Below, piece after piece: positions 5,087 to 17,453 of a DNA stretch of 35,851 bases (position 1 is the stretch's first letter; each line of letters begins with the position of its first letter). A program made the position numbers and the translations under genes. The notes under the pieces are model-generated. The model was not told the origin of the DNA. It searched no databases and saw only the letters and a list, made by a program, of their open reading frames with translations. The stretch spans positions 1 to 35,851 of the forward strand of contig NZ_BBJP01000035.1 of assembly GCF_000739595.1 (NCBI RefSeq), in the 5' to 3' direction. This DNA comes from Halorubrum halophilum (GTDB lineage: Archaea; Halobacteriota; Halobacteria; Halobacteriales; Haloferacaceae).

Positions 5087-6025
5087 TCACACCTCCGTCG
5101 GCGAGCCGTGCTCGCGCGCCAGCTCGGCCAGCGCCGCGAACGCGGACGGATCGAGGTCACCGGGTCGACGGCGGAGCAGCTCCTCGTCGGCGGCGTCGAC
5201 GACGGCCTCCGGGTCGTCCAACCCGGAGATGTGGCCAGTGTTCCGGATCGCGTTCCGGACCGTCTTGCGCCGCTGGGTGAACAGCGCCTTCACGAACCGG
5301 AGGAAAAAGGCCTCGTCGCCCACCTCGTAGTCCGGGTCGCGGGGCGTACACCGGACCACGGCGCTCTCGACGGCGGGCCGGGGGTCGAACGCCTCTTTCG
5401 GGACGCGCTCGACGATCTCCACGGCGGCGTAGTGCTGGGCGGACACGGAGAGCCGGCCGTACTCCGACTCGCCGGCCGACGCCACCATGCGCTCGGCGAA
5501 CTCGGCCTGAAACATCAGAACGAGCGGTTTCCCCTCCGGGAGCAGCCGGAAGGCGATCTCCGAGGAGACGCCGTACGGGAGGTTCGCGACGCAGGCGGTG
5601 AAGGCCGGGAGGTCGACGTCGAGCGCGTCGCCCTCGATCACGTCGAGGAGGCCGTCGTCGACCGCCGTCGCGAACTCCTCGCGGAGAAAGTCGGCGAAGG
5701 CGCCGTCGCGCTCGATCACGGAGAGGCGGCCGGGGGCGGGCTCGCGGCCGGAAGCGGGGTCGGAGCCGGTGGACGCGTCGCCGCCCTCCGCGACGATCGC
5801 CGCCAGCAGCCGGTCGGTGAGCGCGCCGGCGCCCCCGCCGATCTCCAAGAGGTGGCTCGTGTCGGCGTCGTCCGGGAGGTACGCGGGGATCCGATCGAGG
5901 ACGCGGTCGTCGACGAGGAAGTGCTGGTCGCGGTCGGGGTTCGCGCGCTCCCCGGCCCGCCGGGCGAGCGCGTCGGGATCGCGGTCCCCGTACGCCGCGC
6001 CAGCGCCCGTCGATGAATCGGTCAT
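5087..6025 (-). CDS. rsmA: 16S rRNA dimethyladenosine transferase KsgA/RsmA
   Basis: Dimethylates two adjacent adenines in the 3' terminal hairpin of small-subunit rRNA during ribosome maturation. Visible motifs are DQHFL at 33-37, the SAM motif EIGGGAGALT at 61-70, and the catalytic NLPY at 148-151. The C-terminal region includes the usual FTQRRKTVRNAI segment. I start at the ATG at 6025 (312 residues), because the in-frame extension to 6094 adds a non-conserved, basic, proline-rich stretch. An acidic Gly/Ser insertion near 80-98 separates early strands and is typical of halophile loops. The gene lies about 97 nt downstream of the DUF655 gene, a common archaeal neighbour. Confidence 0.93.
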   Translation of the reverse strand: MTDSSTGAGAAYGDRDPDALARRAGERANPDRDQHFLVDDRVLDRIPAYLPDDADTSHLLEIGGGAGALTDRLLAAIVAEGGDASTGSDPASGREPAPGRLSVIERDGAFADFLREEFATAVDDGLLDVIEGDALDVDLPAFTACVANLPYGVSSEIAFRLLPEGKPLVLMFQAEFAERMVASAGESEYGRLSVSAQHYAAVEIVERVPKEAFDPRPAVESAVVRCTPRDPDYEVGDEAFFLRFVKALFTQRRKTVRNAIRNTGHISGLDDPEAVVDAADEELLRRRPGDLDPSAFAALAELAREHGSPTEV

Positions 6026-6122
6026 GGCCGCGTTACTCCGTCGTTCCGGGTAAAAGTCCCGTTTCGGGGCGTCGGTGGCCCCCGGACCGGTCACCGCGCT
6101 TCCCGGCCGTCCCTCGCCCGCC

Positions 6123-6701
6123 TCACTCCTCGTACCCGACGAACCGGCGGTACTTGAGGTCCTCCTCGCGGATCTCTTCGACGATCCGCTCGACGATCAC
6201 CTCCTTGGGGCGGTGGAGGCCGGTGACGCGCTCGGAGATCTCCTCGAAGCTCTCGAAGGGGCGGCGCTTCCGCTCGTCGAGCACCTTGTTCCGGAGCTGC
6301 TTGCCGATCCCCGGCAGGAGGTTGAGCTGGTGGAGTCGCAGGGTGATCGGCCCGGCCTCGTTGTAGAAGTCGACGAACCGCTCCTCGTCGCCCTCGACGA
6401 TGGCCTCGACCGCGTACTCGATCTCGGCGGCCGCGTTCCGGGTGAGGTCGTCGAACGAAACCTCGTGATACCGGCCGACTGCGGGGCCGTCCAGCGCGAT
6501 CCGGTCGCTCACGGAGATGTCCGCCGCCTCGTCGAGCGCGAGCTCGTACAGCTCGAACGCGTCCGTCCCGAGCCCGTACGCGACCGGCGACTTCCGGTAC
6601 TGCGGGCGATCGTCGTCCGGCCGCCCGTTTGGCATCACGTCCAACAGGACGACCGCGGGACCGCCGTCCGCGTCGGGCGCGTCGGCTTCGGGATCGCTCA
6701 T
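6123..6701 (-). CDS. DUF655 family putative RNA-binding protein
   Basis: This 192-residue archaeal protein has a helix-hairpin-helix-like C-terminal part (LNLLPGIGKQLRNKVL) followed by a basic segment with FESFEEISERV. That architecture is typical of DUF655 proteins, which usually neighbour ksgA and RNA polymerase or ribosomal genes. The start at 6701 gives the usual acidic N terminus MSDPEADAPDADGG. The open frame extends far upstream, but that part lies antisense to other genes and reads as composition artefact. The protein probably binds nucleic acid; its exact role is unknown. Confidence 0.85.
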   Translation of the reverse strand: MSDPEADAPDADGGPAVVLLDVMPNGRPDDDRPQYRKSPVAYGLGTDAFELYELALDEAADISVSDRIALDGPAVGRYHEVSFDDLTRNAAAEIEYAVEAIVEGDEERFVDFYNEAGPITLRLHQLNLLPGIGKQLRNKVLDERKRRPFESFEEISERVTGLHRPKEVIVERIVEEIREEDLKYRRFVGYEE

Positions 6702-6818
6702 ACGTGATTTAGCGTTCCGCGCGGTGAAAAAACCGCTGGCGCGCGGCGGGAGAGCGATCCCTTCCGGATCGGTGACGACCGCCGAAAGCCAAAAGCCCGT
6801 CTGTCCCCCACGAATCGT

Positions 6819-7691
6819 ATGAACGAGCCCGCCACCGAGGGCGTGCTGTTGGACCAGGAGACGCTCCACGATCGGCTCGACGACGCGCCCGGCTGGCTGC
6901 GGGACCACTACCGCACCTTCCGCGAGTCGATGCTCGGCGAGCGCGACGGCTCCCCGTTCCCCTGCTACTTCGGTATCGAGGTGGAGCGCGAGGGAGACCT
7001 GCTGTACGCCGCCTGCGAGTCGACCACCGATCCCGCGGCGCTCCTCCGGTTCCGCGACGTCCTCGTCGAGTACCTCGACAGGTACGAGAACCACGCCGAC
7101 CGCGCCCCGCTCGCGGTGTTCTTCCGACCGCCCGACGGCGACCGGGGCGAGGCGCACTACCACGAACGCCTCTGGCACGTCTTGGAGTTCCTCCACGTCC
7201 ACGACCCCGAGCCGTGGCCCGACAACATCCCGACCGACCCGGACACACCCCGCTTCGAGTTCTGCTTCGGCGGCGAGCCGCTGTTCCCGACCTCTCGCGC
7301 GCCGTTCTACGACGAGCGCAAGAGCCGGTACTCGCCGGTGGGGCTCGAGATCACCTTCCAGCCGCGGGCCGTCTTCGACGGGCTCACCGCCGACACGGAG
7401 GCGGGCCAGCGCGCCCGCGAGACGATCCGCGAGCGCATGGACGAGTACGACGGGGTCTGTCCCCACGCCGACCTCGGCGACTGGGGCGTCGAGGGCGACC
7501 GCGAGTGGAAACAGTACCTGTTCCGCGAGGACGGCGACGCGAGCCCGGACGCCTGTCCCCTGAACCCGACTCCCGACCACCCGAAGGCGCCCGAGGCGCT
7601 GCTGGAGCCGGGTGCGTGGCGCCGGCTCGACGAGTCCCCCGCCCCCGGCGACGACGACGCCGCCCTGACCGCGGGGCTCGGCGATGACTGA
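6819..7691 (+). CDS. YqcI/YcgG family protein
   Basis: The 290-residue protein has the family pattern: [15 protein letters not shown] near 47-61, a central [18 protein letters not shown] and the [17 protein letters not shown] segment, then a C-terminal region with Cys residues. The biochemical function of the family is not established to my knowledge. Cys and His residues (CYFG, FCFGG, CPHADLG, CPLNP) could bind metal or haem, but this is inference. Its last 8 nt overlap the isochorismatase-like gene as ATGACTGA, so the two are probably co-translated and may act together. Confidence 0.8.
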
Positions 7692-8271
7692 CTCGTCGCG
7701 GTCGGCGGACACCGGCGCCGCTCCCGGGCATGTCGACGACGCCGTCCTCCTCCTGATCGACTTCCAGACCGGCTTCGACGAGCCGGGGTGGGGCGAGCGC
7801 AACAACCCCGACGCGGAGTCGGTCGCGTCCGCGCTCCTCAGCCGGTGGCGCGAGGCCGACCGCCCGGTCGCGCACGTGCGACACGCCTCGACAGAGCCCG
7901 ACTCCCCGCTGCGCCCGGACGCCCCGGGCTTCGCGTGGAAGCCGGAGACCGCTCCCGCGGCGGGCGAGCCGACCTTCGAGAAGTCGGTCAACGGCGCCTT
8001 CCTCGACTCGGGGCTCGACGAGTGGCTCCGCGAAGGGGGCCACGAGTCGCTCGTCGTCTGCGGGCTCACCACCGACCACTGCGTCTCGACGACGGCCCGG
8101 ATGGCCGAGAACCGGGGGTACGAGGTCTCGGTCGTCGCCGATGCCACCGCGACCCACGCCCGGACGGCCCGCGACGGCGATCGGATCGATCCGGAGACCT
8201 CTCACCGCGTCGCGCTCGCGCATCTCGACGGCGAGTTCGCGACGGTCGTCGAGGCCGACGACCTCCAGTGA
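7684..8271 (+). CDS. Isochorismatase-like cysteine hydrolase
   Basis: The 195-residue protein has the catalytic triad of the cysteine hydrolase (nicotinamidase/isochorismatase) superfamily: Asp26 in [10 protein letters not shown], Lys100 in FEKSVNGAF, and Cys133 in [10 protein letters not shown]. The preceding Gly-Leu-Thr-Thr supplies the usual cis-peptide region. The His metal ligands of true nicotinamidases (DxHxxxH) are not evident, so an amide or ester hydrolase of the general isochorismatase-like class is more likely. The start overlaps the YcgG-family gene by 8 nt. Substrate unknown. Confidence 0.88.
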
Positions 8272-8347
8272 CTTAGGGCGGCCCGGGATGTCCCGCGGTC
8301 GTCGCTCGGATCCTCACGCTTTTCCACTCCGCCGCCGTGGTTCCGGT

Positions 8348-9286
8348 ATGCAACGCGGCCGTCGGAAGCCGGACTGGCTGAAGTCGCGCCCGCCGTCCGG
8401 GAGCCGGTTCACCGAGATCAAGTCCACCCTCCGCGACCGCGACCTCCACACGGTCTGCGAGGAGGCGAACTGCCCGAACATGGGCGAGTGCTGGTCGGGG
8501 GAAGATGGCCCAGGCACGGCGACGTTCATGCTCATGGGCGACCGCTGCTCGCGCGGATGTAACTTCTGCGACGTGGAGACGGGCGGGATGGAGCCGCTCG
8601 ACCCGGACGAGCCCGCGAACGTCGCGGACGCGGTCGCCGAGATCGGGCTCGACTACGTCGTGCTCACGTCGGTCGACCGCGACGACCTCGCTGACGGCGG
8701 CTCCGCGCACTTCGCCGAGACGATCCGCGAGATCAAGCGCCGCGACCCGGAGATCCTCGTCGAGACGCTGATCCCCGACTTCGGGGGCGACCCCGAGGCG
8801 ATTGACCGGATCGTCGACGCCGGACCCGACGTGATCGCCCACAACGTTGAGACGGTCGAACGACTCCAGTGGCCGGTCCGGGACCGGCGGGCGAACTACG
8901 AGCAGTCGCTCGCGGTGCTCGATCGGGTGGACCGGGAGTCCGACATCCACACCAAGACGAGCCTCATGCTCGGCGTCGGCGAGTACGACCACGAGGTGTA
9001 CCGCACCCTCGGGGACCTCCGCGAGGTCGGCGTCGACGTGGTCACGTTCGGGCAGTACCTCCGGCCGTCGCGCTCGCACCTCGACGTGTTCGAGTACGTC
9101 CACCCCGACGTCTTCGAGACGTGGCGCGCGGTCGCCGAAGGGGAGTTCGACTTCCTCTACTGCGCTTCCGGGCCGATGGTCCGATCCTCGTACAAGGCCG
9201 GCGAGCTGTTCGTCGAGGCGCTGCTCCGGGAAGGGCGGGCCCCCGAGGACGCCCGGCGTCAGGCGCGGGCCGCGGGCGGCGACTGA
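8348..9286 (+). CDS. lipA: Lipoyl synthase LipA
   Basis: A radical SAM enzyme that inserts two sulphurs into protein-bound octanoyl groups. The 312-residue protein has the auxiliary [4Fe-4S] cluster cysteines C37, C42 and C48 (CEEANCPNMGEC), and the radical SAM cysteines C67, C71 and C74 (CSRGCNFC). The C-terminal SGPMVRSSYKAGE supplies the serine ligand to the auxiliary cluster. I use the ATG at 8348, since MQRGRRKPDWLKSRPPSG fits the family start. A longer frame from 8141 overlaps the preceding hydrolase out of frame and is not credible. The gene starts about 76 nt after that hydrolase and appears to be its own unit. Confidence 0.95.
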   Translation: MQRGRRKPDWLKSRPPSGSRFTEIKSTLRDRDLHTVCEEANCPNMGECWSGEDGPGTATFMLMGDRCSRGCNFCDVETGGMEPLDPDEPANVADAVAEIGLDYVVLTSVDRDDLADGGSAHFAETIREIKRRDPEILVETLIPDFGGDPEAIDRIVDAGPDVIAHNVETVERLQWPVRDRRANYEQSLAVLDRVDRESDIHTKTSLMLGVGEYDHEVYRTLGDLREVGVDVVTFGQYLRPSRSHLDVFEYVHPDVFETWRAVAEGEFDFLYCASGPMVRSSYKAGELFVEALLREGRAPEDARRQARAAGGD

Positions 9287-9429: not shown

Positions 9430-10551
9430 ATGGGAACAACTGAATCGTCGATCGTCGACTCGGCGCGGGCCCGACCGGGGCTTCTCCTCGTCGCTCTCCT
9501 CGGCGGCCTGCTCCTCGTCGACCTCGCCGCGAAACTCGCCGGGGTTGACCTCGGTCCGATCGGCGGGGCGCTCTCGGCCGATCGGCTCGGATCGAACCTC
9601 TGGAGCGGGGTCGTGATCGGACTCGTGATCGGGCTCGCCGGGATCGGACTCTCGATGACGTACAGCATCCTCTCGTTCGCGAACTTCTCGCACGGCGATC
9701 TCCTCAGCACCGGAGCGTTCACCGGCTGGGGCGTCGCCTTCCTGATCGCCGGATTCGGCGACGTGCCGCTCCGGGCGCTGCTGACCGTCGGGGACGCCGG
9801 GAGCGCGACCCCCGGCGACATCGGGGCGCACGTCCTCTCGACGCCGCTCGCGATACTCGTCGGACTGCTCGCAGCGTTCGCGGTCACCGCCGTCGTCGCA
9901 CTGGCGCTTGACCGCGCGTTCTACAAGCCGATGCGGGACCGCGACGGGATCTCGATCCTCATCGCGTCGATCGGCGCCGCGCTGATCGTCCGCTACGTGA
10001 TCCAGTTCGTCTACGGCTCCGACCGGCGGGGCGTCACGGCGAGCGTCGAGGCCTCGAATCTGGCGTTCGGTCCGCTCGGGATCTCCGTCAACGCCCACGA
10101 TCTGACCATCGCTGTCGCCGCGCTCGGGCTCATGCTCGCGATGCACTTCATGCTCCAGCGCACGAAGCTCGGCACCGCGATGCGGGCGATGGCCGACAAC
10201 AAGGACCTCGCCCTCGTCACCGGCATCCCGGCCGAGCGCGTCGTCACCGCGACGTGGATCATCGGCGGCGGGCTGGCCGGCGCGTCGGGGTACCTCTACG
10301 TCCTGCTCCGCGGGACGATCCAGTTCGACTTCGGCTGGCTGCTGCTCCTCCTGATCTTCGCGGCCGTAATCTTAGGCGGGATCGGGTCGGTGTACGGCGC
10401 GATCGCTGGCGGGCTCGTCATTGGGATCGTCTTCACCACGTCGACGATCTGGATCCCGTCCGACTTCAACGAGGCCGCCGCCTTCGCGGTGATGATCGTC
10501 ATGCTTCTGCTGCGCCCCGAGGGGCTCTTCGGAGGTGTTTCGACCGCATGA
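9430..10551 (+). CDS. livH: LivH-type branched-chain amino acid ABC transporter permease
   Basis: A 373-residue integral membrane protein with eight or more hydrophobic segments. Family landmarks are GLAGIGLSMTYSILSFANFSHGD, MRAMADNKDLALVTGIP (the cytoplasmic coupling region), and the C-terminal FAAVILGGIGSVYGAIAGG. It forms the transmembrane channel with the LivM-type protein encoded next. The stop overlaps the livM start as ATGA. Branched-chain amino acids are the default assignment, but family members also move urea, amides and other compounds, so the substrate is inferred. Confidence 0.9.
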   Translation: MGTTESSIVDSARARPGLLLVALLGGLLLVDLAAKLAGVDLGPIGGALSADRLGSNLWSGVVIGLVIGLAGIGLSMTYSILSFANFSHGDLLSTGAFTGWGVAFLIAGFGDVPLRALLTVGDAGSATPGDIGAHVLSTPLAILVGLLAAFAVTAVVALALDRAFYKPMRDRDGISILIASIGAALIVRYVIQFVYGSDRRGVTASVEASNLAFGPLGISVNAHDLTIAVAALGLMLAMHFMLQRTKLGTAMRAMADNKDLALVTGIPAERVVTATWIIGGGLAGASGYLYVLLRGTIQFDFGWLLLLLIFAAVILGGIGSVYGAIAGGLVIGIVFTTSTIWIPSDFNEAAAFAVMIVMLLLRPEGLFGGVSTA

Positions 10552-11891
10552 GCGACGCTTCGCCGCCGTCGGGCGAGGGGGGATCGCCGGCCGACGGATC
10601 GGCCCCGGAGAGCGCGACCGCCGCCCTGATTGACGCCGCCCGGCGGAGCGACCTCGGGCTCGTGCTCGGGACGCTCCTCCTCGTCTACCTCGCCGCGACG
10701 CTGCTCACCTTCACCGACGGGCTCAACAGCGTCGTCGGGCTGATGCGGACGCTGACGTTCCTCGGGCTCGTGTACGCGCTCGCCGCGCTCGCGTTGAACC
10801 TCCAGTGGGGGTACGCCGGGCTGTTCAACATCGGCGTCGCCGGGTTCATGGCGCTCGGCGTCTACACGATGGGGATCGTCGTCCGGTCCCCCGACCCGGC
10901 GTTCGGCCCGCCCGGATTCGGGCTCCCGCTCCCGGTCGGCATCGTCGCCGGCATGCTGATGGCCGCCGTCGTGGGGCTGCTCGCGGCGCTCCCGGCGCTC
11001 CGGCTCAAGGCTGATTACCTCGCGATCGTCACGCTCGGCATCTCGGAGATCATCCGGCTGTTCCTCCAGTCGAGTGCGTTCGACACGTTCCTCAGGGACA
11101 CGCTCGGCGTGGGCACCGGCGGCGGCCGCGGCATGGGGATGCCGCAGAATCCGATCCGCGAGCTGTTCCTCGTCGACGGACAGGCGGGGACGCCGACGGC
11201 CCTCGGCGACCTCATCTTCGGCGTCTTCGGCGAGAGCGGGCTCGGGATCTCCAACACGATCCTCATCGACTGGGCGTACATCGCCGTGCTCGCCGCCTTC
11301 GTGATCGGCTTTTACGTCCTGCTCGAACGGCTCGGCCGGTCGCCGTTCGGCCGGCTCCTCAAGGCGATCCGGGAGGACGAGCTCGTCGCCGACTCGCTCG
11401 GGAAGAACGTGGACCTGATCAAGATCAAGGTGTTCGTCATCGGCTGCGCGCTGATGGGACTGGCGGGGATCCTCTGGTTCGGTAGCCAGGGCAACGTCTC
11501 GCCGACGCCGCAGTTCATGCCCGTCCTGACCTTCTACGTCTTCATCGCCGTCATCATCGGCGGGTCCGGCTCGAACACCGGCGCGGTCCTCGGCGGCATC
11601 GTCTTCGCAACCGTGCTGTTCGAGGGACCGCGCCGCATCGGGTCGTCGCTGCGCGACGTGATCGACGCCGAGACGCCGCCGTCGTTCGGGGACGCGCTGG
11701 TCTCGCTGGATCCGACCGCGTTCCTCGCGTACGCGACCGACAACATCGCGCCGCTGCAGTTCGTCTTCCTCGGGCTCATCCTGGTGTTCATCATGCACCG
11801 GCGGCCCGACGGGATACTCGGCGACCGGATCGAGACGGCCGCGGCCGTCGACCTCTCGGAGCGCCCCAGCGGGGGTGAGACCGATGAGTAG
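10548..11891 (+). CDS. livM: LivM-type branched-chain amino acid ABC transporter permease
   Basis: A 447-residue permease. It starts with a low-complexity Ser/Gly/Asp-rich cytoplasmic segment, followed by about ten hydrophobic segments. LivM signatures include LNLQWGYAGLFNIGVAGFMA, LRLKADYLAIVTLGISEIIR, FGRLLKAIREDELVADSLGKN and VIIGGSGSNTGAVLGG. I chose the ATG at 10548 because it gives an ATGA overlap with livH; a longer frame starting at 10254 runs inside livH in another phase. The stop overlaps the start of livG by 8 nt (ATGAGTAG). Confidence 0.9.
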   Translation: MSDASPPSGEGGSPADGSAPESATAALIDAARRSDLGLVLGTLLLVYLAATLLTFTDGLNSVVGLMRTLTFLGLVYALAALALNLQWGYAGLFNIGVAGFMALGVYTMGIVVRSPDPAFGPPGFGLPLPVGIVAGMLMAAVVGLLAALPALRLKADYLAIVTLGISEIIRLFLQSSAFDTFLRDTLGVGTGGGRGMGMPQNPIRELFLVDGQAGTPTALGDLIFGVFGESGLGISNTILIDWAYIAVLAAFVIGFYVLLERLGRSPFGRLLKAIREDELVADSLGKNVDLIKIKVFVIGCALMGLAGILWFGSQGNVSPTPQFMPVLTFYVFIAVIIGGSGSNTGAVLGGIVFATVLFEGPRRIGSSLRDVIDAETPPSFGDALVSLDPTAFLAYATDNIAPLQFVFLGLILVFIMHRRPDGILGDRIETAAAVDLSERPSGGETDE

Positions 11892-12789
11892 CGACATCCC
11901 GGAGGCCTCGGACGTCGCCGACGCGGCGGACGAAGTCGACGCGGCCGACGCGATCAGCGACGAGCCCGAGGCGAACGACAGCGCCGTCGAGGAGGCGGCG
12001 AAGCACATCCCGTCCGGGGGGACGTCGCCGCTCCGAGTCGACGGGCTCGTCAAGCGCTTCGGCGGCGTCACCGCCGTCGACGGCGCCTCCTTCGAGGTCG
12101 AACAGGGATCGCTCACCGGCCTGATCGGTCCCAACGGGGCCGGCAAGTCGACCACGTTCAACTGCATCACCGGCGTCCACGAGCCGACGGCGGGGTCGGT
12201 GTACTTCAAGGGCGAGGACGTCACCGGGCTCGAACCGTACCAGATGGCGCGGAAGGGACTCGTGCGGACCTTCCAGATCGCCCGCGAGCTAGAGGAGATG
12301 ACCGTGCTGGAGAACCTGATGCTCGCGCCGAAGGGGCAGATCGGCGAGTCGGCGATCCGGGCGGTCACGCCCGGGCTCCGCGGCGAGGTGATCGAGCAGG
12401 AGGAAGAGACCCGCGAGCGCGCCTGGGAGACGCTTGACTTCTTCGAGATCGACCACCTCGCGACCGAACACGCCGGCAACCTCTCCGGGGGGCAGCGGAA
12501 GCTGCTGGAGATGGCGCGCGCGCTCATGACCGACCCGGAAGTGGTCCTGCTCGACGAGCCGCTCGCGGGGGTTAACCCCACGCTAGAGGAGAAGCTCCTC
12601 GACCGGATCCACCAGCTGCGCGAGGACGGCTACACCTTCCTCCTCGTCGAACACGACATGGACGTCATCATGAACAACTGCGAACACGTCATCGTCATGC
12701 ACCAGGGAAGCGTTCTCGCCGAGGGGACTGGCGACGAGATACGGAACAACGAACAGGTCATCGAGGCCTACCTGGGTGAGGACATATGA
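11884..12789 (+). CDS. livG: LivG-type ABC transporter ATP-binding protein
   Basis: The 301-residue ATPase has Walker A GPNGAGKST at 82-90, the signature LSGGQRKLLEMARALM, and Walker B VVLLDEPLAGVNP. LivG subunits have the characteristic long segment after the Walker A (EPYQMARKGLVRTFQIAREL). The first 45 or so residues form an acidic, alanine-rich extension that bacterial homologues lack. The ATG at 11884 overlaps the livM stop. It powers the transporter together with LivF. Confidence 0.92.
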   Translation: MSSDIPEASDVADAADEVDAADAISDEPEANDSAVEEAAKHIPSGGTSPLRVDGLVKRFGGVTAVDGASFEVEQGSLTGLIGPNGAGKSTTFNCITGVHEPTAGSVYFKGEDVTGLEPYQMARKGLVRTFQIARELEEMTVLENLMLAPKGQIGESAIRAVTPGLRGEVIEQEEETRERAWETLDFFEIDHLATEHAGNLSGGQRKLLEMARALMTDPEVVLLDEPLAGVNPTLEEKLLDRIHQLREDGYTFLLVEHDMDVIMNNCEHVIVMHQGSVLAEGTGDEIRNNEQVIEAYLGEDI

Positions 12790-13655
12790 GCGCCGACGAG
12801 GCGGAAGCCACCGACGAAACCGCCGGGGACGACCCCGGCGACGCCGGAGATTCGCCGAGCGCGGACACCGATGATTCCCCGAGTACCGCCGGCGGCGACA
12901 CGCCACTCTCCGCCGAGGTCGACGCGGGAACGACACACACGCTCGACGGCGACGCGATCCTCCGGCTCCGAGACCTCGACGCCGGCTACGGCGACCTCCA
13001 GATCCTCTCCGACGTCGACCTCGACGTCGCCGACGGGGAGTACGTCACCATCGTCGGTCCCAACGGGGCGGGCAAGTCGACGGTGATGAAGACCGTCTTC
13101 GGGCTCACGACCTACATGAACGGGACCGTCGAGTTCGAGGGCGAATCGATCCACGGGCTTCCGCCCGAGCAGATCATCCGCGAGGGGATCGGGTTCGTCC
13201 CGCAGAACGACAACGTGTTCCCGGGACTGAGCGTGCGCGAGAACCTGGAGATGGGCGCGTACATTCTCGACAGCGTTCCCGAGGACCAGATCGAAGAGAT
13301 CTACGACCGGTTCCCCATCCTCCGGGAGCGGAAGGAACAGAAGGCCGGGACGCTCTCCGGCGGTCAGCGGCAGATGGTCGCGATGGGGCGCGCGCTCATG
13401 CTCGACCCCGACCTCCTGTTGCTCGACGAGCCCTCCGCGGGGCTCGCACCCGACCTCGTGGCCGACATGTTCGACCGGATCGATCGGATCAACGACTCGG
13501 GGACGGCGGTGCTCATGGTCGAGCAGAACGCGAAGGAGGCGCTGCGGCGTTGCGACCGCGGCTACGTCCTCGTGAACGGCGAGAACCGCTACACCGACCG
13601 CGGGGAGGTGCTGCTCGGCGACGAGGACGTGCGGAAGGACTTCCTGGGCGGATAA
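12786..13655 (+). CDS. livF: LivF-type ABC transporter ATP-binding protein
   Basis: The 289-residue ATPase has Walker A GPNGAGKST at 91-99, a FVPQNDNVFPGLSVREN Q-loop region, the signature LSGGQRQMVAMGRALM, and Walker B LLLLDEPSAGLAPD. About 55 acidic low-complexity residues precede the domain, as in the LivG-type protein. The start lies in an ATGA overlap with livG. It is the last gene of the livHMGF run; the substrate-binding protein is encoded convergently about 570 nt away rather than within the operon. Confidence 0.92.
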   Translation: MSADEAEATDETAGDDPGDAGDSPSADTDDSPSTAGGDTPLSAEVDAGTTHTLDGDAILRLRDLDAGYGDLQILSDVDLDVADGEYVTIVGPNGAGKSTVMKTVFGLTTYMNGTVEFEGESIHGLPPEQIIREGIGFVPQNDNVFPGLSVRENLEMGAYILDSVPEDQIEEIYDRFPILRERKEQKAGTLSGGQRQMVAMGRALMLDPDLLLLDEPSAGLAPDLVADMFDRIDRINDSGTAVLMVEQNAKEALRRCDRGYVLVNGENRYTDRGEVLLGDEDVRKDFLGG

Positions 13656-13768: not shown

Positions 13769-14013
13769 CGGTTGTTTATAAGCGATCGAGTGATGTTGCT
13801 GGCGGTCGTTTATAAGTCTCAGACAGCACGGTGAACATCTCCAAAGCCCCAGCCGCGAGGGCGGCGCACGCTCGCTGCGCGCCTCACTCGGTCGCTATCG
13901 CTCCCTCGTTGCGGTGCTTACCTCGCCTGCGCCGCCCTCGCGGCTGCCCCTTTGAGCCCACCCCGCACCGCAACCGCACAGCCTCACGCCTCCCCAGCCT
14001 CGTCGCTGGCGGC
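13769..14013 (+). repeat. Dispersed ~250-bp repeat, copy B (inverted relative to copy A)
   Basis: This matches the reverse complement of 234-489 over its whole length, from GTTTATAAGCGATCG at 13774-13788 to the GTCGCTGGCGGC terminus. The exact motif GTTTATAAGCGATCG recurs outside the repeat at 14092-14106, and copy A has a one-base variant at 460-474. Each copy thus carries TATA-like boxes ahead of a GC-rich core. The small open frames in the core have no gene-like features. The repeat lies between livF and the convergent binding-protein gene. Confidence 0.85.
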
Positions 14014-14028
14014 TGTCGCCGCCAGCGA
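14003..14028. other. Perfect 11-bp hairpin at the end of repeat copy B
   Basis: TCGCTGGCGGC is followed by a TGTC loop and then GCCGCCAGCGA, giving a perfect 11-bp GC-rich stem. There is no U-run, so intrinsic termination is uncertain. It may be the structured end of the repeat element. Copy A keeps only one arm. Confidence 0.6.
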
Positions 14029-14221
14029 CTCCCTCGCACCGGCGGTTCGCGGCCCTTCGGGCCGCTCACCGGGGCGCGCCACCACCCGTTCGTTTATAAG
14101 CGATCGTCGCCGTCGCTCACGGTTGTTTAAATACTCTATCGTCGCCATCGATCTGCAACACTCACTCCCACCATCGCGCAGAAAAAATCGGAAAACGGAC
14201 CGAGCCGAACCGCCTGCTCGC
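14029..14221. other. Intergenic segment with a third GTTTATAAGCGATCG motif
   Basis: No gene. The segment contains GTTTATAAGCGATCG at 14092-14106, identical to the motif at the start of repeat copy B, then GGTTGTTTAAATACTC about 25 nt later. These look like degenerate re-iterations of the repeat's left end. Confidence 0.5.
14049..14065. terminator. GC-rich hairpin between the convergent liv genes
   Basis: GCGGCCC, TTC loop, GGGCCGC form a perfect 7-bp stem in the convergent interval downstream of both livF and the binding-protein gene. No clear T-run follows on either strand, so a terminator role is only possible. Confidence 0.25.
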
Positions 14222-15607
14222 CTACTGGTTCAGCACGCTCGACCACTGGCTGGTGTACGTCGCCTGTGCCGGCTCGAAGGAGACGCGCTCCGCGATCGTG
14301 CCGCCGTTGTCCTCGAACGAGGCCACGTACTCCTCCTCGAGCGACTGGCCGTAGGCGTCGTTGAGGTACAGGGTTCCGGAAGACTCGGCGCCGACCGTGT
14401 CGCCCCGCGCGAGCTCGGCCATCGCCGGGCCCTGCAGGAGGTCGGACGGCGCGGTCCGGAAGATGTAGCCGTTGTCGTCCAAGTCGGTCACGTCCGGGCT
14501 CGTCGAAGACGGCGAGATGCCGACGACGCCGTTGGGGATGTACACCTGGTCGGCCACCTGCAGGTTCACGTTCGAGGAGGCCGGGCCGACGACCGCGCCG
14601 TAGCCGGCGTCGACGAGCGCGTTCGCGCCCGAAATCCCCGCCTGCGGGTCCGTCTGCGTGTCCTCAACGCGGGTGTTCACCGTGACATTCAGGTCCGCGT
14701 CGTTGACCTGGATCGCGGCAAGCAGCGCGCCGTCGCGGATCGGACCGCCGAGCGACCCGAGATCACCGGTCTCGGGCATCAGCACGCCGATCATCGCCTC
14801 GAACTCGCCGTCGATCCCGACGGGGTCCGCCGCCGTCGCGTTCAGGTCCTCGTCGGAGAGCTCGTTCCCGAACTCGAGGGTGTCGAGCGTGACGATCTCG
14901 CCGTCTTGGAAGTCCTGTACGTCGTACGCCGCGGTGGCGATGTCGCCGTTGGAGTCGAAGTTGACGCTCGACGACGCTCCCACGTAGTGGACTGGGTCGC
15001 CGGCGGCGACGGTCTCGACCGCCTCGGGGAGGTTCTCCGGGCCGAACTCCTCGCCGCCGGGATTCGCGACGGTCCGGATGCGGTCGCGGATAGCCTCGCC
15101 GTTGTTCTCGCCCGCGGCGGTCGCCGCGAGGATCTCGACCGCCATCGCGTCGTAGGCCTGCGCGGTGAACACGCCCGGCGCGGTGTCGTACTCCTCCTCG
15201 TACAGGCCGGTGAAGAACTCCGCGCCCGGACCGCCCGCGGACGGCGCAGTCCCGATGACGTTGTTCATGTCGTTGTCGACTTCGCCGGGGAGGTCCGAGT
15301 CGATCAGCCCGTCGGGCACGATGATGTCCAGCTCGGGCACGTCGCTGGCGAAGTCGGAGTAGAAGTCGCGGAACAGCTGGATACCGGACTCCGGGAAGCC
15401 GACGACCATCACGGCGTCCGGCGCGTCGCCGCCGGACCCGCCGTCGGAACCGTCGCTTCCGTCGGAGCCGTCAGAACCGTCGCTTCCGTCCGAGCTGTCC
15501 CCTCCGTCGCTGCCGTCGCCGCTTTCGGTCGAGCAGCCGGCGAGTGCCGCGATGCCGGCCACTCCGGCGCCCTTGAGTACGTCGCGTCGCTGTATCCTTC
15601 GCGTCAT
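14222..15607 (-). CDS. Circularly permuted Liv-type substrate-binding lipoprotein
   Basis: The 461-residue protein starts MTRRIQRRDVLKGAGVAG, a Tat-type signal, with lipobox LAGC (Cys25), so it should be anchored outside the membrane. A Ser/Asp/Gly linker with repeated DGS follows (26-60). Residues about 62-225 (DAVMVVGFPESG, IIVPDGL, VFTAQAYDA, PGGEEFGPENL, ending AAYDVQDFQDG) correspond to the second half of ordinary Liv-type binding proteins. Residues 272-461 (MIGVLMPETGDLGSLGG, VEDTQTDPQAGISGA, GISPSSTSPDV, YIFRTAPSD) correspond to the first half. The protein stops at SSVLNQ, exactly where an ordinary homologue would run on into PDAVMVVGFPESG. The start at 15607 is backed by a TATA-like box 29 nt upstream. 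It is presumably the receptor for the neighbouring LivHMGF transporter. Ligand unknown. Confidence 0.85.
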   Translation of the reverse strand: MTRRIQRRDVLKGAGVAGIAALAGCSTESGDGSDGGDSSDGSDGSDGSDGSDGSDGGSGGDAPDAVMVVGFPESGIQLFRDFYSDFASDVPELDIIVPDGLIDSDLPGEVDNDMNNVIGTAPSAGGPGAEFFTGLYEEEYDTAPGVFTAQAYDAMAVEILAATAAGENNGEAIRDRIRTVANPGGEEFGPENLPEAVETVAAGDPVHYVGASSSVNFDSNGDIATAAYDVQDFQDGEIVTLDTLEFGNELSDEDLNATAADPVGIDGEFEAMIGVLMPETGDLGSLGGPIRDGALLAAIQVNDADLNVTVNTRVEDTQTDPQAGISGANALVDAGYGAVVGPASSNVNLQVADQVYIPNGVVGISPSSTSPDVTDLDDNGYIFRTAPSDLLQGPAMAELARGDTVGAESSGTLYLNDAYGQSLEEEYVASFEDNGGTIAERVSFEPAQATYTSQWSSVLNQ

Positions 15608-15630: not shown

Positions 15631-15640
15631 AGCTTATAAG
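15631..15640 (-). promoter_or_regulatory. TATA-like box for the binding-protein gene
   Basis: CTTATAAGCT on the minus strand is centred about 29 nt before the ATG at 15607. This gives a leaderless transcript and selects MTRRIQRR over the longer in-frame start at 15664. Confidence 0.6.
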
Positions 15641-15824: not shown

Positions 15825-17453
15825 TCAGTACCCCTGCGCGTTTCCGTCCTTCCGCGGCTCGGTCGCCGCCGAGAGGACGCCGTTCCGGGATCGCGCGATC
15901 TGAGCGCCGCCGAACCGACCCGGCGGGAGGGTCCGTACGTCGTGGCCCCTCCGAGCAAGCTTCGCGGCGGTCCCCCCGTCAGCGTGGGGTTCGAGCGCCA
16001 GCTCGCCGCTCTCGCGGTAGCGCCACCGCGGCTCGTCGAGCGCGCGCTGGAGCGGCATCCCGTAGTCGACGAGGTTCGAAACTACCTGCACGTGCCCCTG
16101 CGGCTGCATGTACCCGCCCATCACGCCGAAGGCGGCCCAGTCGTCCTCGTCGAACCGGACGAGGCCGGGTATCAGGGTGTGAAACGGTCGCTTCCCCGGT
16201 TCGAGGCGGTTGGGATGGTCGGGATCGAGCGAGAACGACGAGCCCCGGTTCTGAAGGGCGATCCCCGTCTCGCCCGCGACGAGCCCGGAGCCGAACCCGG
16301 CGAACCGCGAGTTGATGTACGAGACGATGTTGCCCTCCTCGTCGGCGACCGTCAGCAGGACGGTGTCGGCGTCCTCGGCGTTGGCGTCGGAGACGCCGAA
16401 GCTCACGTCGTGGTCGGCGGTCTCGCCGATCTCGGCCGCCCGGCGTTTCGCCCACGACGCGGAGGCGAGCGGTGGGACCTCCTCGTAGGCCGGGTCGGTG
16501 ATGTAGCGGTGGCCGTCGTGGAAGGCCACCTTCAGCGCCTCCGCGAAGTAGTGGACGCGCTCGGGGGAGTCGTAGTCGTACTCGCCGGCGCCCACCTCGG
16601 CGGCGACGTTGAGCGCCTCCAGCGCGATGAGCCCCTGGTTGTTCGGCGGGAGTTCGTACACCTCCGCGCCGTTGTACGTCGTCGAGACCGGATCCGGCCA
16701 CTCCACCTCGAAGCTCGCGAGGTCGTCAACAGTCATGAACCCGCCCGCCGCCTGCACCTCGTCGGCGATGGCCTCGGCGATCTCGCCCTCGTAGACGACG
16801 TCCGCTCCCTCCTCGGCGATCAGCCGCATCGACTCACCGAGCCGCGGGAGCGTCACCCGCTGGCCGATCGATGGCGATTCGCCGTCGAAGAGGTACGCCT
16901 CGCGGGCGTGGTCGCTCTCGAACAGCTCCTCGCCACGAGTCCACGACTCCGCGATCACCTCGCTGACCGGGTATCCCTCCGTCGCGTAGCGGATCGCCGG
17001 CCGAAGGAGCCGGTCGAGGCCGAACTCGCCGAACCGCTCGGCCGTCGCCTCCCACCCGCGTGCGGTCCCGGGGACCGTCACCGTCTGTGCCCCCGTCATC
17101 GGCATCTCGACCGCGCTCGGGTCGCCCTCCTCGATATCGTCGTCGCCCGCGAGCGCCTCCCGGACGTTCTCGATCGTCGCGTCGGCGGGCGCGCCGCCGC
17201 AGGCGCGCATGGCGCCGACCTCGCCGTCCGCGGTGCGGTACAGCGCGAACACGTCCCCGCCGATCCCCGTCGACGTCGGCTCGACGACGTTGAGGGCGGC
17301 GGCGGTCGCCACCGCGGCGTCGAACGCGTTTCCGCCGTCCCGCAACACCTCGATCCCCGCCTCGCTCGCGAGCGGCTGGCTCGTGGCGACCACGCCGCGC
17401 TGTCCGTACACCGTCGACCGCCGGGAGCCGAACCGGTCCACGTCTGGATCCAT
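15825..17453 (-). CDS. ggt: Gamma-glutamyltransferase family protein (YwrD-like)
   Basis: An N-terminal nucleophile hydrolase of 542 residues that should self-cleave before Thr364, in ADTVLLTVADEEGNIVSY. Family landmarks are VVATSQPLASEAGIEVLRDGGNAFDAAVATA near the N terminus, the GIGGD motif, VPGTARGWEA, and downstream RGSSFSLDPDHPN and GKRPFHTLIPGLV with GGYMQPQGHVQ. The order and length match the YwrD-like branch of the GGT family. No signal peptide is visible, so it may act in the cytoplasm on gamma-glutamyl compounds. The GTTTAACCCC box about 28 nt upstream fits a leaderless start at 17453. Confidence 0.9.
   Translation of the reverse strand: MDPDVDRFGSRRSTVYGQRGVVATSQPLASEAGIEVLRDGGNAFDAAVATAAALNVVEPTSTGIGGDVFALYRTADGEVGAMRACGGAPADATIENVREALAGDDDIEEGDPSAVEMPMTGAQTVTVPGTARGWEATAERFGEFGLDRLLRPAIRYATEGYPVSEVIAESWTRGEELFESDHAREAYLFDGESPSIGQRVTLPRLGESMRLIAEEGADVVYEGEIAEAIADEVQAAGGFMTVDDLASFEVEWPDPVSTTYNGAEVYELPPNNQGLIALEALNVAAEVGAGEYDYDSPERVHYFAEALKVAFHDGHRYITDPAYEEVPPLASASWAKRRAAEIGETADHDVSFGVSDANAEDADTVLLTVADEEGNIVSYINSRFAGFGSGLVAGETGIALQNRGSSFSLDPDHPNRLEPGKRPFHTLIPGLVRFDEDDWAAFGVMGGYMQPQGHVQVVSNLVDYGMPLQRALDEPRWRYRESGELALEPHADGGTAAKLARRGHDVRTLPPGRFGGAQIARSRNGVLSAATEPRKDGNAQGY

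Follow-up and report, generated by a model that had tools for sequence, protein, structure and literature searches.

A circularly permuted Liv-type substrate-binding protein in Halorubrum halophilum and the probable recurrence of its permutation at one loop in haloarchaea

Introduction

The glycine betaine binding proteins OpuAC and ProX, which have the type II fold, are importer proteins discussed as circular permutants, and a paper on circular permutation cites them (PMC2395249). Among type I lipid-anchored binding proteins, TpMglB-2 (Tp0684) of Treponema pallidum is a natural circular permutant (PMC4990184). It has a two-lobed crystal structure and binds glucose, and an extra crossing at the hinge joins its old ends (PMC4990184). 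Together with its kin from spirochaetes and Gram-positive bacteria it has been proposed to form Type Ic (Cluster Bc), and the authors raised the question of whether anchoring favours permutation (PMC4990184). Natural circular permutation via duplication and trimming has been described for DNA methyltransferases and for saposin/swaposin; duplication is the standard model of permutation, and intermediates have been documented for the methyltransferases (PMC3320104). In the open-licence literature, no report of a haloarchaeal or Liv-type permutation was found; only that of TpMglB-2 came up.

In this study, a stretch of 35,851 nucleotides from Halorubrum halophilum (contig NZ_BBJP01000035.1, assembly GCF_000739595.1; hereafter the window) was analysed. 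An earlier note, made from the letters of this DNA, had read one of its genes as a Liv-type binding protein in which the second half precedes the first.

Results and Discussion

Gene and protein layout

The gene is a single open frame on the minus strand, a correction to the earlier note; its features and those of the adjoining transporter genes are collected in Table 1. An RR motif and an LAGC lipobox predict that the product is secreted and lipidated. C25 is invariant in an alignment of 35 permuted proteins, and the Pfam TAT_signal profile matches the signal peptide with 19.8 bits, below its cut-off of 22.7. The TATA box proposed upstream of the gene is present as a TTATAA motif, and its spacing would fit a leaderless haloarchaeal promoter. 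An acidic join between the old ends had been placed at about residues 225-271; such a linker exists but is shorter (about 248-270), because residues 225-247 form the native C-terminal beta-hairpin, which is matched by residues 423-445 in the model of an unpermuted orthologue.

Table 1. Positions in the window of the permuted binding-protein gene, its parts and the neighbouring transporter genes.
Feature	Position	Strand	Remarks
livH-type permease gene	9430..10551	+	conserved cassette
livM-type permease gene	10548..11891	+	conserved cassette
livG-type ATPase gene	11875..12789	+	conserved cassette
livF-type ATPase gene, convergent with the binding-protein gene	12786..13655	+	conserved cassette
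Permuted Liv-type (type I, Peripla_BP_6) lipoprotein substrate-binding protein	14222..15607	-	461 aa + stop
Residues 271-461: original N-terminal half, from IGVLMPETGDLG to SSVLNQ, the new C-terminus	14225..14797	-	
Residues 248-270: new acidic 23-residue linker, old C-terminus to old N-terminus	14798..14866	-	
Residues 62-247: original C-terminal half, from strand and helix PDAVMVVGFPESG to the final beta-hairpin	14867..15424	-	
Residues 26-61: Ser/Asp/Gly tether linker, disordered	15425..15532	-	sequence; pLDDT <50 for residues 1-59
Residues 1-25: twin-arginine (RRD) signal peptide and lipobox LAGC, lipid-anchored Cys25 (predicted)	15533..15607	-	
TATA-box-like TTATAA, ~27 nt 5' of the ATG	15634..15639	-	sequence; putative function

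Swapped order of the two halves

Sequence searches against Pfam and the PDB matched the two halves of the protein in swapped order, which bears out the circular permutation proposed earlier. The Pfam profile Peripla_BP_6 matched residues 273-458 with its positions 4-186 (104.4 bits against a cut-off of 31.7), which places the protein in this family; Pfam scored one half over the cut-off and the other under it. A profile scan of the whole genome found profile positions 191-311 upstream of 4-188 in the window protein, which alone was swapped, the other six Peripla_BP_6 proteins of the genome all being collinear. Similarly, phmmer aligned residues 272-457 with residues 18-199 of the chain in PDB 3td9, and residues 123-196 with residues 265-337. 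The protein departs from the canonical chain order of the Liv-type fold in that its second half comes first, and the collinear alignment with LivJ/LivK-type proteins that would have spoken for an ordinary protein did not appear. What the window gene encodes is a circular permutant of the usual type I binding protein of the Liv kind.

The chain is cut between the helix ending in SSVLNQ and the strand PDAVMVV, in the C-terminal lobe, exactly where the earlier note had put it: unpermuted orthologues read on through this point as SSQWSEVLN-DNPGVVAVIGFPESG. All 60 of 60 unpermuted proteins, bacterial and non-haloarchaeal ones included, have exactly 12 residues from a conserved aromatic residue to the proline (or its equivalent) across the cut, and by this spacing none of the 60 carries a scar of re-joining.

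Predicted fold

The AlphaFold2 model of the permuted protein has a mean pLDDT of 82.7 and a pTM of 0.79 from a shallow alignment of 35 rows (the window protein and 34 permuted homologues), with disorder essentially confined to the signal and the tether. The model of the unpermuted orthologue L071, from Halorarius, reached a pTM of 0.82. Both models share 27 helices and strands, 14 from the original first half and 13 from the second, in rotated order; within the join, the permuted model has one further short helix. Alignment with LivJ/LivK structures served as a control: the unpermuted model matched over its full length (TM 0.88-0.90 over ~384 columns). The permuted model aligned over one half only (TM 0.40-0.46, 178-192 columns), because the aligner is sequential and the protein is permuted. 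A fold unable to form a type I structure had been named as an outcome adverse to permutation; the confident model, with every element of the fold present and rotated, points the other way and suggests that the two-lobed fold and the ligand cleft are intact.

The assignment of the LivJ chain to its two lobes is well established. By this assignment, the cut would fall in lobe 2, in a loop that leads from a helix into a strand at the side of the sheet pointing away from the cleft, and the lipid tether would now sit on lobe 2 rather than lobe 1. Since the joined old ends lie in different lobes, an extra (fourth) lobe crossing is expected at the hinge and would bridge them. The putative ligand-site positions S345, T369, Y419 and D99, which we take to be the counterparts of LivJ S79, T102, Y150 and E226, are conserved.

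Transporter cassette and gene slot

The locus reads livH-livM-livG-livF, followed by the binding-protein gene on the opposite strand. This genetic link to livHMGF is a common one: convergent livF/livG genes lie at most 3 kb from the binding-protein gene at 59 of 67 permuted loci and at 34 of 54 unpermuted loci. In three loci from non-haloarchaeal archaea (L144-L146) the same slot holds a protein of normal order. With unpermuted outgroups in the same slot, the normal order, like the slot itself, looks ancestral from these gene arrangements.

Several other features of the neighbourhood were recorded. A ggt gene (15825-17453) is conserved next to the cassette in Halorubrum; it is only a candidate for a functional tie. 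At one locus of the same genus (L129, genome G041), an unpermuted binding protein lies with divergent livHMGF genes (proteins 52-78% identical to those of the window) beside a ggt gene 86% identical to that of the window, as if the entire cassette had been replaced. An intergenic element of ~225 bp (13860-14090; second copy at 233-388 on the minus strand) occurs in at least 40 copies in its own genome at 79-91% identity (40 of 247 candidates were scored) and resembles a dispersed miniature or REP-like element. Motifs of the TTTATAAG type flank this dispersed repeat between livF and the binding-protein gene (at ~13772, 13808 and 14090), and two of the three have CGATCG after them.

Occurrence and selection

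Homologues with the same order, the search for which had been proposed earlier, are widespread across Halobacteriales and trace to more than one origin. A survey of 52 genomes of the genus found the permuted order in 48 and an unpermuted orthologue in three, with one genome lacking a match. In a family-wide search, about 110 of 170 genomes had a single match in permuted order (hand count). The permuted order was present in Halorubrum, Halohasta salina, Natronomonas sp. LN261 and two Halobacteriales MAGs, as well as in genomes of nine family codes, namely f1, f4, f5, f6, f7, f8, f11, f12 and f17, and among its carriers are genomes of one or two contigs (G014, G037 and G042 included). Judged from sequence comparison, the window gene is under purifying selection: dN/dS against seven relatives was 0.12-0.31, alike in both halves.

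Individual loci deviate from the usual single gene. In one genome (G016) the permuted gene is broken into parts encoding residues 1-358 and 350-461, ~1.4 kb apart, which suggests an insertion. In genome G250 (family f17), two permuted binding proteins stand in tandem (5941-7347 and 7459-8772 of locus L117) beside livHMGF, and similar tandem permuted pairs occur in other genomes of its genus code.

Number of origins

For tree building, each protein was split at the permutation points and the halves were placed in a common order. The permuted proteins formed separate clades A (with the window protein), B and C, with a further clade D in a wider sample; clade A is sister to the unpermuted Halorarius protein L071, and the unpermuted sisters of permuted proteins are 60-66% identical to them. 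The tree of concatenated halves needs three changes of label (5-95% range over 200 bootstrap trees, 3-3); the N-half tree alone needs three and the C-half tree two. Forcing all permuted rows together cost 86 log-likelihood units (AU p 0.0004), and a single permuted clade cost 102 units with archaeal outgroups included (AU p 0.0009). The tree of LivHMGF, proteins that are themselves unpermuted, has the same pattern with three changes on its starred branches, and it too rejects a single permuted clade (delta lnL 266, p 5e-87). A single origin is therefore rejected by AU tests on both the binding protein and the linked transporter genes. Clades B and C are acceptable as one clade (AU p 0.29). Two origins are thus well supported by these sequence trees; three or four are also likely, though with less certainty, since B and C are not rejected as one clade.

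The clades share the point at which the chain was opened. The new C-terminus lies 10 residues past the conserved aromatic residue in 62 of 63 proteins of clade A, 12 of 12 of clade B and both of clade D, and 9-13 residues past it in clade C. The linkers are 14-24 aa long, and their sequences are unlike between clades. Independent events at one loop are a coincidence that calls for a structural or selective cause, and, having been used repeatedly, this loop may be a preferred one for either of these reasons.

Route of permutation and alternative explanations

We consider it likely that the window gene encodes a working lipid-anchored binding protein of the convergent LivHMGF importer, a circular permutant of the Liv type, and that the permutation recurred at the same loop. 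The substrate would probably be an amino acid or a similar small molecule. The most likely route is permutation in place via tandem duplication and trimming, which would have happened at the same loop at least twice (three to four times by the best trees). This would have required fusing the signal peptide to the latter half of copy one and truncating copy two. The resulting chain would begin midway through the C-terminal lobe, at a strand, and end after the helix that formerly preceded this strand, with ~23 acidic residues linking the old ends.

A fused double or other intermediate was not seen in the haloarchaeal loci. An ancestor with the two orders in tandem, one or the other of which was later lost, was rejected, as no locus of 169 has both. 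Separately, two Dehalococcoidia MAGs have a fusion of ~855 aa in which two Liv-type binding proteins run N-C-N-C (L085, 2163-4727; L086, 1663-4224), followed by more binding-protein sequence in tandem. This shows that such a fusion is possible in the Liv-type family; it is otherwise unrelated to the haloarchaeal permutation.

A bolder proposal is that the same permutation arose three to four independent times in haloarchaea, in the same loop and slot, because binding proteins that are anchored at the surface and dock on LivHM gain an advantage when the anchor sits on lobe 2 in place of lobe 1. We offer it tentatively, as conceivable rather than probable.

The common cut point would also follow from one permutation and repeated half-by-half gene conversion from unpermuted relatives; this would leave the chain order as it was but make the trees of the halves reflect the donors. 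Movement of cassettes from genome to genome does occur, as the unpermuted cassette of G041 beside its ggt gene illustrates. However, for clade A both halves and the transporter genes agree on L071 as sister, so that every conversion would have had to span the two halves and agree with the resident cassette; in addition, none of the 169 loci combines the two orders, and the linkers differ in sequence among clades. Conversion is thus an unlikely explanation of the trees.

Less probable again is that the haloarchaeal ancestor already had the permutation, as a single ancient event, and that the normal order was regained several times. Such a history would account without coincidence for the identical cut point in all permuted clades, but the outgroups are unpermuted, both trees require more reversions than gains, and the 12-residue spacing is kept without a scar in every unpermuted protein of the 60. 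The present sample lies far toward unpermuted clades that keep the ancestral spacing and branch outside the permuted ones.

An assembly artefact or a decaying pseudogene has a negligible chance of being the explanation. The genome is a draft of 103 contigs, of which the window contig is one, but an assembly rearrangement, raised by the earlier note as a possible objection, is ruled out: the order recurs in dozens of other, independent genomes, and some of these consist of just one or two contigs. The low dN/dS argues against decay.

Recurrent permutation in place is the reading that we prefer. Cassettes that are close relatives of one another contain the protein in either gene order, in a group that includes genetically tractable laboratory strains. 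This makes testable whether chain order and anchor position matter, a question that the TpMglB-2 structure posed but did not answer (PMC4990184), and also whether proteins permute repeatedly at preferred sites. Collinear profile models capture just half of the permuted proteins well, a warning for annotation by Pfam.

Comparison with known systems

The ordinary Liv-type proteins (E. coli LivJ/LivK, Thermotoga TM1135 of PDB 3td9, Brucella 4n0q; PF13458, Peripla_BP_6) are homologous to the window protein throughout. They share with it the secondary-structure elements, the livHMGF partners and the conserved putative ligand-site positions; in the window protein, the halves are swapped, a new linker is present and the new ends lie in the C-terminal lobe. 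OpuAC/ProX differ from it in fold class, the window protein being of type I. The DNA methyltransferases and saposin/swaposin are different proteins, with intermediates documented for the methyltransferases and none seen in haloarchaea.

Like the members of Type Ic, the window protein is a type I binding protein with a circular permutation; the other mark of that group, a shift of the three leading N-lobe strands to the C-terminus with the C-lobe order unaltered, is absent from it. TpMglB-2 belongs to the sugar (MglB) subfamily, and in it those three strands were moved while the order of the C-lobe was left untouched. The haloarchaeal protein would work like TpMglB-2 yet stands outside its group by its C-lobe cut and its Liv subfamily. 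Compared with this known precedent, ~190 residues have been moved, in an archaeal protein, and the surprising part is the independent recurrence.
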